DNA of 64,000 bases, taken from Hahellaceae bacterium (GTDB lineage Bacteria > Pseudomonadota > Gammaproteobacteria > Pseudomonadales > Oleiphilaceae). The DNA is taken from NCBI GenBank assembly GCA_024234575.1, contig JACKOB010000006.1:279888-343887 (forward strand). The letters are read 5' to 3'. The notes under the pieces are model-generated. The model saw only the letters and a list, made by a program, of their open reading frames with translations. It was not told the DNA's origin and searched no databases. Both the position numbers and the translations under genes were made by a program. Positions 60,677 through 64,000 of this stretch are shown here, one piece after another. Every line of letters starts with the position of its first letter. The stretch's first letter is position 1.

Positions 60677-60832
60677 CCAATAAGGGTTTGAACGGATTTC
60701 TTGCACAAACGACGGGTCTCACGCATTATTATCGCTAAATTAATTTAGTTGTTATTGGGTTGGAGCGGGGTTAAGGGTGGTAAACAACCATTTTCCGTTA
60801 CTGCCTCTCATTCAGCTCGCAGAGAAGAGATA

Positions 60833-62251
60833 ATGACCGAAGCGAAGAAAAAAGTAATTGTTGGCTCAGAAGAGTGGTGTGCATTTCCTGGCATTGGTAT
60901 TCCCGCCATAAAAGCCCGCGTCGACTCTGGCGCTAAAACCTCGTCTATTCACGCTTTTAATATCGAAACCTTTCGCCGGGAAGGCGTTTTGTGGGTAAGT
61001 TTTGAGGTTCACCCGCTACAGGGTAATCGTAAAACTGTCATCCGCTGTGAGCGTCCGGTTGTGGATAAACGCAAAATCAAAAGCTCTAGCGGTGTCGCTG
61101 AGACACGATACGTGATTGCCGTGACCATGAAAATGGGACAAGAAACCTGGGATGTAGAACTAACCTTAGCCAACCGCGACTCGATGGGGTACCGCATGCT
61201 CTTAGGGCGTGAGGCAATGAATGGCCGGTTACTTGTCGACCCATCCGCCAGTTTTATTATGGGTGAACCCTCCGCAGAAAAGCTCAATGAATGCTATGGC
61301 AAACCACTTGCGAAAAAGCATGGTCTTAAAATCGGGTTACTTGCCAGCGACATCGATCTCTACAGCAACCAGCGTCTGCTTGAAGCCGGTGAAGAACGCG
61401 GTCACGATCTTTATTTTTTAAATATTAAACACTGCTATATGAAAGTGGATGATATCGAGCCCGAAGTTCATTTCAGGGGCGGCACCGTATTACGGGACCT
61501 CGACGCGATCATCACCCGCATTCGCCCAAGTGCTACATTCTATGGTTGTGCCATCGCCCGCCAGTTTGAAAGTATGGGGATTTTCACCACAAACTCTGCT
61601 GCCGCCATCAGCCAGTCACGAGACAAGTTATTATCGTTACAGATGCTGTTAAAGAATGGCATTAGTATTCCCACCACAGGCTTTGCCGATTCACCTATGG
61701 ATACGGGCGATCTGATAGAAATGGTCGGCGGCGCACCGCTGATTATTAAACTGATGGAAGGCGCACAGGGCAAGGGTGTCGTACTGGCAGAAACCGTCAA
61801 AGCGGCAGAAAGCGTGATAGATACGATTAAATCGTTAGATGCCAATTTGTTGGTGCAAGAATTTATTCAAGAAGCAAATGGAAAAGACTTACGTTGCTTC
61901 GTTATCGACGGCAAGGTTGTCGCTGCAATTGAACGATCAGCAGCGCCCGGGGACTTTAGGGCCAATCTGCATCAGGGAGGCTCTGCAAAAGTCGCTAAGA
62001 TAACCACAGAAGAGCGCAAACTGGCAATAAAAGCCGCCAAAGTTCTAGGTTTGCAAGTGGCGGGTGTTGACATCATTCGGTCGAAACGCGGGCCGTTATT
62101 GTTGGATGTGAATAGCTCACCGGGCTTAGAAGGAATTGAAACCGCAACCGGCAAAGACATCGCCGGAATGGTAATCGCCTCTATCGAGGCCAAGCTTGAA
62201 TGGAAGCGGGAAGTAGGTAAAGCCTACCATAGCGAAGGCTCACGCTCTTAA
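60833..62251 (+). CDS. RimB-RimK fusion: zinc protease-like domain plus glutamate ligase
   Basis: A 472-residue two-domain protein. The N-terminal domain (about residues 8-145) is of the RimB / ATP-dependent zinc protease-like family with a retropepsin-like fold, marked by ARVDSGAKTSSIHA (D31-S-G-A) and MLLGREAM. The C-terminal domain (about 165-455) is an ATP-grasp ligase like RimK: KLMEGAQGKGVVLAE, EFIQEANGKDLRCFVIDG, and VAGVDIIRSKRGPLLLDVNSSPG. RimK adds glutamates to ribosomal protein S6, and RimB-type proteins cut such tails; a fusion would hold both activities. The start at 60833 has GAAGAGAT upstream; in-frame codons back to 60749 add nothing recognisable. It may equally act on another target. 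Confidence 0.85.
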   Translation: MTEAKKKVIVGSEEWCAFPGIGIPAIKARVDSGAKTSSIHAFNIETFRREGVLWVSFEVHPLQGNRKTVIRCERPVVDKRKIKSSSGVAETRYVIAVTMKMGQETWDVELTLANRDSMGYRMLLGREAMNGRLLVDPSASFIMGEPSAEKLNECYGKPLAKKHGLKIGLLASDIDLYSNQRLLEAGEERGHDLYFLNIKHCYMKVDDIEPEVHFRGGTVLRDLDAIITRIRPSATFYGCAIARQFESMGIFTTNSAAAISQSRDKLLSLQMLLKNGISIPTTGFADSPMDTGDLIEMVGGAPLIIKLMEGAQGKGVVLAETVKAAESVIDTIKSLDANLLVQEFIQEANGKDLRCFVIDGKVVAAIERSAAPGDFRANLHQGGSAKVAKITTEERKLAIKAAKVLGLQVAGVDIIRSKRGPLLLDVNSSPGLEGIETATGKDIAGMVIASIEAKLEWKREVGKAYHSEGSRS

Positions 62252-62306: not shown

Positions 62307-63698
62307 TTATAAAAAATCTAACGGGCTGGAAGTTTTACCTTTTGCAAAATTCGCTGTGTGCGTGTAGATCATCGTTGTGGAAACATCACTGTGTCCCAAC
62401 AGTTCTTGTACCGTACGAATATCCATCCCACGTTCCAATAAATGCGTCGCGTAGCTATGCCGAAAGGTATGGCAAGACACCCGCTTACTAATCTCAACTT
62501 TTCGCGAAACTGTACGCACCGCTTTTTGTAAAGTTGACTCATGAATATGATGCCGTCTCACGGCTCCACTTTTCGGGTCTACCGAGTGTTTAGCGCTGGG
62601 AAACACATACTGCCACACCCATTGCTTGTCAGATTTACCGTATTTTTTTACCAGATCAGCAGACATATAAGTGCTGCCCAGGCCATTACTTAGATCCTCG
62701 GTGTGTTGTACCTTAATCGACGCCATGTGCGACCGAATTGGCTCGACCAACTTAACCGGCAATGGCACAACGCGCTCTTTATTTCCCTTAGCATTGCGAA
62801 TAATAATCTGCTGATAGCCAAAATCGATATCTTGTACACGCAAACGAACGGCCTCCATCAAACGCAAGCCGCACCCGTACATTAACTGTACAAGCAGAGA
62901 CTGAACTCCGTTAAGCTCGTCTAATATTCGAGACAGCTCTTGCGTAGTAAGTACAACAGGCACCTTTGTACGTGGGCGAGATTTTACAAACTGACGCACA
63001 TCCCCCAGGTCTCTATCAAGAACGGCTTTAAAGTAAAAAGAGATCGCATTGAGAACAATCGCTTGCGTCGCCGGCGCGACTTCTCGATCTAACGCCAAGT
63101 ATGAGAGGTAATCCAAAACATCTTTGTTAGAAAGCGCGTCGTAGTTTTTTACTTGCGTGTAGTTAAAAAAACGGTTTAACCAATGTGTATAAGTGGATTC
63201 AGTTCGAATGCTATAGTTTTTAAGACGCACCTTTTTAATTACTTTGTCTAGCTCATCGGTATGATTATCATCTGAGCTGTCGGTTTGCGTTGGTGAGTCA
63301 GTCGAAGCATCGGCTGCTGTAACAGTGGTGACTTTGAAATTATTTCGGGCTACGGTAGGATGCGTTGGCTCAAGATCTTTACAAGACATCTTCCAAAAGT
63401 CCCAATCAATTTCTTTGTAAATAGGTGACCGGATTGTCTGGAAGAGTAGTTTTATAGCATCCATTTCTTGGCGCTTTACATAGGCGCTGACATTGGGTGA
63501 ATTTATCCTTAGTTTAAAATAGTCGGATACGTCTTGTGTCGTATGGTCCTTAAGCCGTATATTTTTATGACTTTTTATGTACCATTCACAGTGTCTAACG
63601 TAATAAGAGAAAAGGTTTGGGGCAATTCCCGATTGTTGCAAAGTGATTAAATAGTTGTCCCAGAAGCGCTGCTCACGCTCATCTTTGAAATGAAGCAC
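62307..63698 (-). CDS. intI: Integron integrase (IntI-like tyrosine recombinase), N-terminally extended
   Basis: A 463-residue tyrosine recombinase. The catalytic domain has Arg279 (GCGLRLMEAVRL), Lys304 or Lys307 (NAKGNKER), His410-x2-Arg413 (CHTFRHSYATH), His436 (LLGHSD) and nucleophile Tyr445 (TTMIYTH). The insert specific to integron integrases is present as KYGKSDKQWVWQYVFPS (352-368) followed by RRHHIHESTLQKAV, and the protein ends SPLDFL. Ordinary IntI proteins have about 320-340 residues. Here residues 1-120 add what looks like a second core-binding domain (FWDNYL, YYVRHCEWYI, DWDFW), joined by a Thr/Ser/Asp-rich linker (123-149) to the usual one (150-232). GTG start with AAGGA seven bases upstream. 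It is divergent from a candidate attI site and cassette. Confidence 0.9.
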   Translation of the reverse strand: MLHFKDEREQRFWDNYLITLQQSGIAPNLFSYYVRHCEWYIKSHKNIRLKDHTTQDVSDYFKLRINSPNVSAYVKRQEMDAIKLLFQTIRSPIYKEIDWDFWKMSCKDLEPTHPTVARNNFKVTTVTAADASTDSPTQTDSSDDNHTDELDKVIKKVRLKNYSIRTESTYTHWLNRFFNYTQVKNYDALSNKDVLDYLSYLALDREVAPATQAIVLNAISFYFKAVLDRDLGDVRQFVKSRPRTKVPVVLTTQELSRILDELNGVQSLLVQLMYGCGLRLMEAVRLRVQDIDFGYQQIIIRNAKGNKERVVPLPVKLVEPIRSHMASIKVQHTEDLSNGLGSTYMSADLVKKYGKSDKQWVWQYVFPSAKHSVDPKSGAVRRHHIHESTLQKAVRTVSRKVEISKRVSCHTFRHSYATHLLERGMDIRTVQELLGHSDVSTTMIYTHTANFAKGKTSSPLDFL

Positions 63699-63746
63699 AA
63701 TTAATTCCTTTTAAAATGGTTACAATCCTTTGTAAACTCGGTTTGG

Positions 63747-63775
63747 ATTATACGGATTCCGTCTATTCCAGTAAA
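63747..63775 (-). promoter_or_regulatory. Candidate promoter of the integrase gene
   Basis: On the minus strand TTTACT (63770-63775) and TATAAT (63747-63752) are spaced by 17 bases. The -10 is perfect and the -35 matches four of six. The leader to the GTG would be about 40 bases. No LexA box (CTGT-N8-ACAG) is seen across it, unlike many integrase promoters. Confidence 0.6.
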
Positions 63776-63791
63776 TCAGGGAATCCGTCTA
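63758..63791 (+). repeat. Direct repeats TCCGTCTA in the candidate attI region
   Basis: TCCGTCTA occurs at 63758-63765 and 63784-63791, 26 bases apart, each within a (G)(A/T)(A/T)TCCGTCTA(A/T)T context. In known attI sites, direct repeats upstream of the core bind the integrase; position and orientation here fit that role. Confidence 0.45.
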
Positions 63792-63798
63792 ATAAACT

Positions 63799-63805
63799 GT
63801 TAGGT
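63799..63805 (+). other. Candidate attI recombination core site
   Basis: GTTAGGT matches the integron core consensus GTTRRRY exactly. It lies 101 bases from the integrase start on its upstream side, where attI is found in integrons, and is followed after ten bases by the ATG of a plus-strand ORF. Crossover would occur between G63799 and T63800. The AGGTGA that overlaps it is also the best ribosome site for that ORF. Confidence 0.6.
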
Positions 63806-63815
63806 GAATAGAAAT

Positions 63816-64000
63816 ATGAGCATTTTCATAATATTAGGATTTTTATTCCTAATTGCTTTAATCGTGTGGTTCAGCAGGAGAAATACTCCTGCTTATCCTC
63901 CATTAAATGTGGACGTAGACCACCCTTTGATGCTTAAAGCAATCGAGAAGGCTAAAGCTACAACAGATAAATTTTTAAGTCTGTTTTCTGAAGGTGTACA
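63816..64000 (+). CDS. Truncated ORF, candidate first gene cassette
   Basis: The frame is open from the ATG at 63816 to the window end (61 codons). The product starts with a hydrophobic helix (FIILGFLFLIALIVWF, residues 3-18), then basic residues and a Pro-rich stretch. The following segment, HPLMLKAIEKAKATTDKFLS, loosely resembles the beginning of DUF2314 proteins. The ribosome site AGGTGA overlaps the attI-like core. If the core is real, this is the first cassette gene of an array that continues beyond the window. Function unknown; the DUF2314 resemblance is weak. Confidence 0.6.
   Translation, partial: MSIFIILGFLFLIALIVWFSRRNTPAYPPLNVDVDHPLMLKAIEKAKATTDKFLSLFSEGV

Follow-up and report, generated by a model that had tools for sequence, protein, structure and literature searches.

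The right-hand end of a 64,000-nucleotide stretch of contig JACKOB010000006.1 (Hahellaceae bacterium, GCA_024234575.1), referred to below as the window, is almost certainly an integron platform. It contains a 463-codon minus-strand open reading frame (ORF) at positions 62307-63698, opening with GTG, that encodes the integron integrase (intI); a plus-strand GTTAGGT heptamer at 63799-63805, divergent from intI and 101 bases beyond its start codon, that forms the right core of attI; and a plus-strand ORF whose ATG at 63816 lies ten bases past this core. A preliminary description of the window had picked out these three elements, noting an IntI-specific insert in the integrase, and had called their arrangement the exact geometry of integrons. 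The elements and their layout are all confirmed here, but the platform departs from the standard type: its integrase carries a second core-binding-type domain and its attI a repeated upstream unit. The extra length of the integrase and the direct repeat ahead of the core are features beyond that description.

Integrase, attI core and first ORF

TIGR02249, the NCBI integron-integrase model, matches residues 150-462 of the window integrase with 411 bits, against a cut-off of 265, while the XerC and XerD models score it far below their own cut-offs. The top match among solved structures is 2a3v, in an alignment that spans residues 158-461 and runs without large gaps through the stretch that we take to be the integron-specific insert. 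The catalytic residues R279, K304, H410, R413, H436 and Y445 show no variation across 43 aligned relatives of the same lengthened kind (long integrases in what follows). A scan of genome contigs yielded four relatives, none of them from the genome of the window. Together the model score, the structural match and the invariant residues establish that the original assignment of the protein was right.

A heptamer of the form GTTRRRY is expected about once per 1024 positions and strand and is weak evidence by itself. The attI core is credible because a similar context, a TCTAAT-(3 to 5 bases)-CTGTT layout, recurs at the same place in related loci, also outside the Gammaproteobacteria. The attI is both adjacent and divergent to intI, with a core and context conserved in relatives. 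Crossover presumably takes place between the G and the TT of the core.

The ORF that follows (63816-64000, plus strand) is seen for 61 codons and is still open where the window ends. It begins with a stretch resembling a membrane helix. Neither Pfam nor NCBIfam assigned its 61 residues to a family with a useful score, a weak match to the major facilitator superfamily being all that appeared up to a threshold of E 10, and there was no match in a plasmid collection; a search of 48 genomes of one order was empty as well, an answer that is uninformative by the search's own warning. A fleeting idea of a resemblance to DUF2314 was given up, this family being missing from the Pfam scan list.

The extra N-terminal domain and the long-integrase branch

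The window integrase exceeds the usual length by about 140 residues. Its usual core-binding domain, located by profile and structure alignment, occupies residues 146-235 (62994-63263, minus strand), and ahead of it residues 1-118 (63345-63698, minus strand) form a second domain of core-binding (SAM-like) type. PF13495 matches residues 1-145 at E 2.1e-5 and is matched in 23 of 38 fragments, and hhalign aligns the extra domain to the usual core-binding domain. Because the VIA-align comparison of the whole model barely tested residues 1-143, the extra domain was also folded alone; in both fold and profile it matches the core-binding domains that tyrosine recombinases have. The available text of a classification (PMC8138268) places integron integrases among the simple recombinases, with one core-binding and one catalytic domain, an architecture from which the window integrase departs by its second core-binding-type domain. 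Because that text says 'usually', we treat the extra domain as a variant and not as grounds for exclusion from IntI.

In a tree of 90 integrases built on their common part (67 labeled long and 23 labeled short) the 67 long rows form one set with support 99/97. Three rows labeled short fall inside this branch: P0055, a 269-residue piece from a 901-base contig; L004, which starts at a contig end; and L070, which a later alignment (from residue 31) shows to be long. When relatives from the class of Desulfobacter were added, a quick tree placed all 38 long-labeled rows, those from that class included, on the side of the window integrase, with a Shimodaira-Hasegawa-like approximate likelihood ratio (SH-aLRT) of 85 for the long side, which is below the 95 mark. 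The same side holds L190, which failed the 90-residue rule for long integrases but whose reading frame is open over 454 codons. When long is defined by a match that begins no later than residue 16, such integrases occur in at least 30 of 138 integrase-bearing genomes (369 genomes of one class), in 5 of 99 (192 genomes) and in 24 of 32 (40 genomes of one order). Genomes from the class of Desulfobacter carry divergent long integron integrases (L191-L197, L141, L147, L151, L155 and L158), including L192 and L196, of 443 and 469 residues and both over the TIGR02249 cut-off. Several integrase matches per genome are found in this class, for example five in G509 and four in G419.

Longer integron integrases that form a clade have been described before. 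In the part of Nemergut et al. 2008 (PMC2426708) that was available, clade 15 consists of deltaproteobacterial IntI proteins, about 120 residues longer, that are regarded as a gene fusion, and the long integrases of Desulfobacter-class genomes are possibly this clade. In that part of the paper the fusion domain is unnamed and attI uncompared. Two sequential core-binding domains are, in the available text of PMC8138268, found only in RitA and absent in all other tyrosine recombinases. RitA shares this feature with the window integrase but is part of the recombinase-in-trio transposable elements, whereas model score and insert mark the window protein as an integron integrase; there is no second recombinase ORF beside intI, with the right side seen for 61 codons. 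A longer IntI has been known since 2008, and what is apparently new is the identity of the domain and its pairing with an attI repeat, neither of which was found in the open-access full-text literature (few subscription papers were covered).

The repeated unit upstream of the attI core

Two related units precede the core of the window attI. The upstream one, TATACGGATTCCGTCTA (63749-63765), is a near-palindrome with 7 of 8 arm pairs by hand count; the core-proximal one, ATCAGGGAATCCGTCTA (63775-63791), lies 26 bp from it and has 4 of 8 arm pairs counted in the same way. They are identical at 12 of 17 bases. In a per-locus test, 13 of 20 bases agree in the window (p 0.020). Values of p at or below 0.05 were obtained for 14 of 40 loci with long integrases (2.0 expected) and for 4 of 44 with short ones (2.2 expected).

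The repeat is also evident when loci are pooled, with the core picked by a motif blind to the repeat and the 20 bases before it compared with bases further upstream. In a first set a core was located in 32 of 40 long and 29 of 49 short loci. Identity in the long loci peaks at offsets of 25 and 26 bases, at 0.374 (robust z 7.0) and 0.349 (robust z 5.4) against a median of 0.265. Copies from one locus are more alike (0.514) than copies from different loci (0.385), a difference reached in 0 of 1000 permutations. The 29 short loci of this set gave no repeat peak, with identities of 0.303 within and 0.312 between loci (731 of 1000 permutations). A second set comprised 57 further loci, 3 of which were set aside as neither long nor short, with a core in 21 of 26 long and 10 of 28 short loci. 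Here the long loci again showed a within-locus excess (0.464 versus 0.382, 0 of 1000 permutations) and the 10 short loci none (993 of 1000). Kinship among loci makes them dependent on one another, which the permutation test offsets only in part. L175 and L179 provide examples of locus-specific units.

Across 53 long loci there is dyad symmetry about axes at 16.5 bases (z 4.5) and 42 bases (z 3.5) ahead of the core, and additional axes are placed at 7 and 29 bases. Covariation of the arms, examined for the axes at 16.5 and 7, is present at both (0 of 2000 each). The attI sites of short integrases, in 39 loci, have a single strong dyad axis 29.5 bases before the core, also with covarying arms (0 of 2000). 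A doubled palindrome as the mark of long integrases was considered and rejected, as both kinds carry it: the 99% null level is exceeded in 8 of the 40 long loci and in 4 of the 44 short ones. It is the direct repeat that separates long from short attI sites.

Cassettes, interpretation and rival explanations

The preliminary description also placed a first cassette at about position 63800. The window itself reaches only 61 codons into it, and what supports this claim comes by analogy from relatives. In 34 of the 38 long loci whose flank was long enough, an ORF of 50 residues or more starts within 160 bases of the core, in 26 of them within 40 bases, and no pair among the 34 first ORFs is related at E 1e-3. 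Unrelated first genes beside related integrases are the pattern that cassettes give. On 13 long-integrase platforms (12 stretches and L001) an intermediate rule found 19 attC-like sites, at least one on 9 of the 13, where shuffled sequences give 0.9. Two or three of these sites look doubtful, and the rule missed both of the attC-like sites visible by eye in L003. Seventeen of the 19 score on the opposite strand too, because the sites are nearly palindromic. A looser rule, applied to 26 loci, gave 11 sites in 36,328 bases on the attI side of long integrases (shuffles 1.2) and 8 in 28,224 bases beside short ones. By analogy with these loci the ORF at 63816 is, in all probability, a cassette gene, the DNA from 63800 would be a mobile gene cassette ending in an attC past 64000, and an array of such cassettes likely continues beyond the window.

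Overall, the window very probably holds the chromosomal integron platform of a gammaproteobacterium akin to Oleiphilus, with an extra domain in its integrase that may read the upstream attI unit. For the host, the electron-transfer flavoprotein oxidoreductase encoded in the window has 84% identity to its counterpart in Oleiphilus messinensis, the top species-named match among the 120 proteins listed. Several observations weigh against parts of this picture. The Foldseek E-values for the extra domain all exceed 0.001. The window stops 61 codons into the first ORF, so that no attC is seen from its own genome, and among relatives a strict attC rule leaves one site in 26 loci, while the looser rule also gives 6 sites in 68,164 bases across intI from attI. 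The scan for doubled palindromes was unspecific to long integrases and found no match in the window. An identity of 0.55 at offsets of 25-26 is reached by no more than 14 of the 32 long loci in the first set and 7 of the 21 in the second, and in the second set identity was highest at an offset of 27 (0.463) instead of at the preset 25 and 26; because of this peak we give the step of the repeat as 25-27 bp and not as exactly 25-26.

That the integrase belongs instead to a phage or an integrative element, where tyrosine recombinases are common, is extremely unlikely in view of the TIGR02249 score well over its cut-off, the XerC and XerD scores far below theirs, a viral contig collection that gave no relative with the six peptide patterns tried, and the attC-like sites that flank the platforms of relatives. 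An empty or dying platform, with a fixed chromosomal gene after 63816 and no array following, would agree with window DNA that ends at 64000, before any attC, and with the 4 of 13 relatives without an attC-like site, several of whose stretches are short. Such a state is very improbable, however, for a platform with an intact integrase and a short distance from core to ORF, in a family where first ORFs are unrelated among 34 loci.

The role of the extra domain is less certain. The N-terminal extension might serve dimerization or synapsis, or might be a fusion with no active part, in which case it would not read attI; the single invariant column in the extension across 38 fragments fits such a view, and PMC2426708, in its available part, treats the group some 120 residues longer as a gene fusion under pseudogenes, adding that it is possibly functional. 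We consider this unlikely, as the extension retains the core-binding fold, persists in a branch that spans Gammaproteobacteria and Desulfobacterota, and accompanies the attI repeat. The main rival to an arm-reading domain is an operator for a repressor. The near-palindromes of attI would then serve a host or SOS regulator or intI self-repression and would not be accessory recombination sites, and indeed the units are dyad-symmetric, like the sites of dimeric repressors, and a promoter-like pair for intI in the window, TTTACT-17-TATAAT (10 of 12 positions), overlaps the upstream unit. We view this alternative as improbable. The promoter-like scan gave one site where shuffles give 1.8; across 53 long loci the best such pair lies 44-60 bases from the core in only 4 and most commonly at 84-89 bases (12 loci), outside the units; and LexA boxes (CTGT-N8-ACAG) are found in 3 of the 53. 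Moreover, the unit varies strongly between loci yet matches within a locus, which points to a reader that is encoded by the locus.

IntI recombines the folded, single-stranded attC of a cassette with double-stranded attI. At the window platform IntI dimers would join these two partners at 63799 while the second core-binding domain would hold the repeated upstream unit, as the direct repeats of attI1 act as accessory sites, and this hold would favor attI x attC recombination, with new cassettes entering at the array's head. The extra domain may bind the upstream unit, a proposal drawn from sequence comparison to which we give slightly less than even weight; an added head of this kind would explain a unit that changes between loci and yet stays in step with its partner. 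We consider it possible, while doubting it on balance, that integron integrases split early into single-headed and double-headed lineages, that the duplicated domain is an arm-binding module for a locus-specific near-palindrome 25-27 bp upstream, that protein and site co-evolve, and that insertion is made directional without host factors. The preference of IntI for attI and the need of many chromosomal integrases for host factors are open questions in the field, and a large natural branch with an added domain of DNA-binding type and a matching locus-specific attI repeat is a direct test case. If the proposal is true, it represents a second way to build accessory sites, besides the direct repeats of attI1.

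Comparison with known integrons places the window in context. Like the sedentary chromosomal integrons of the V. cholerae type (IntIA/attIA), it has a divergent intI, an attI core and a probable cassette gene right after the core, and 2a3v, the V. cholerae integron integrase, can be aligned with both its catalytic and its usual core-binding domain, the difference being its second core-binding-type domain. With class 1 attI1, whose IntI1 is a short integrase, it shares repeated units upstream of the core, although the unit of the window branch is dyad-symmetric with a fixed step of 25-27 bp. According to the available text of PMC8191803, IntI1 has additional binding sites in the direct repeats of attI1; these repeats favor attI1 x attC recombination and are of a kind absent from most attI sites; attIA is there said to have no direct repeats, in contrast to the repeated upstream unit of the window.

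The promoter-like pair for intI, at 63747-63775, is at chance level and atypical of the family, and an intI promoter inside attI with self-repression by IntI was dropped as an idea, such pairs lying mostly elsewhere in the family. No LexA box is present in the part of the window scanned, and Rfam and tRNA searches of the window were empty. The left neighbor of intI, at 60749-62251, encodes a fusion protein in which a putative ATP-dependent zinc protease is joined to a RimK ATP-grasp domain; its best relatives in a set of 369 genomes share 73% and 71% identity with it.
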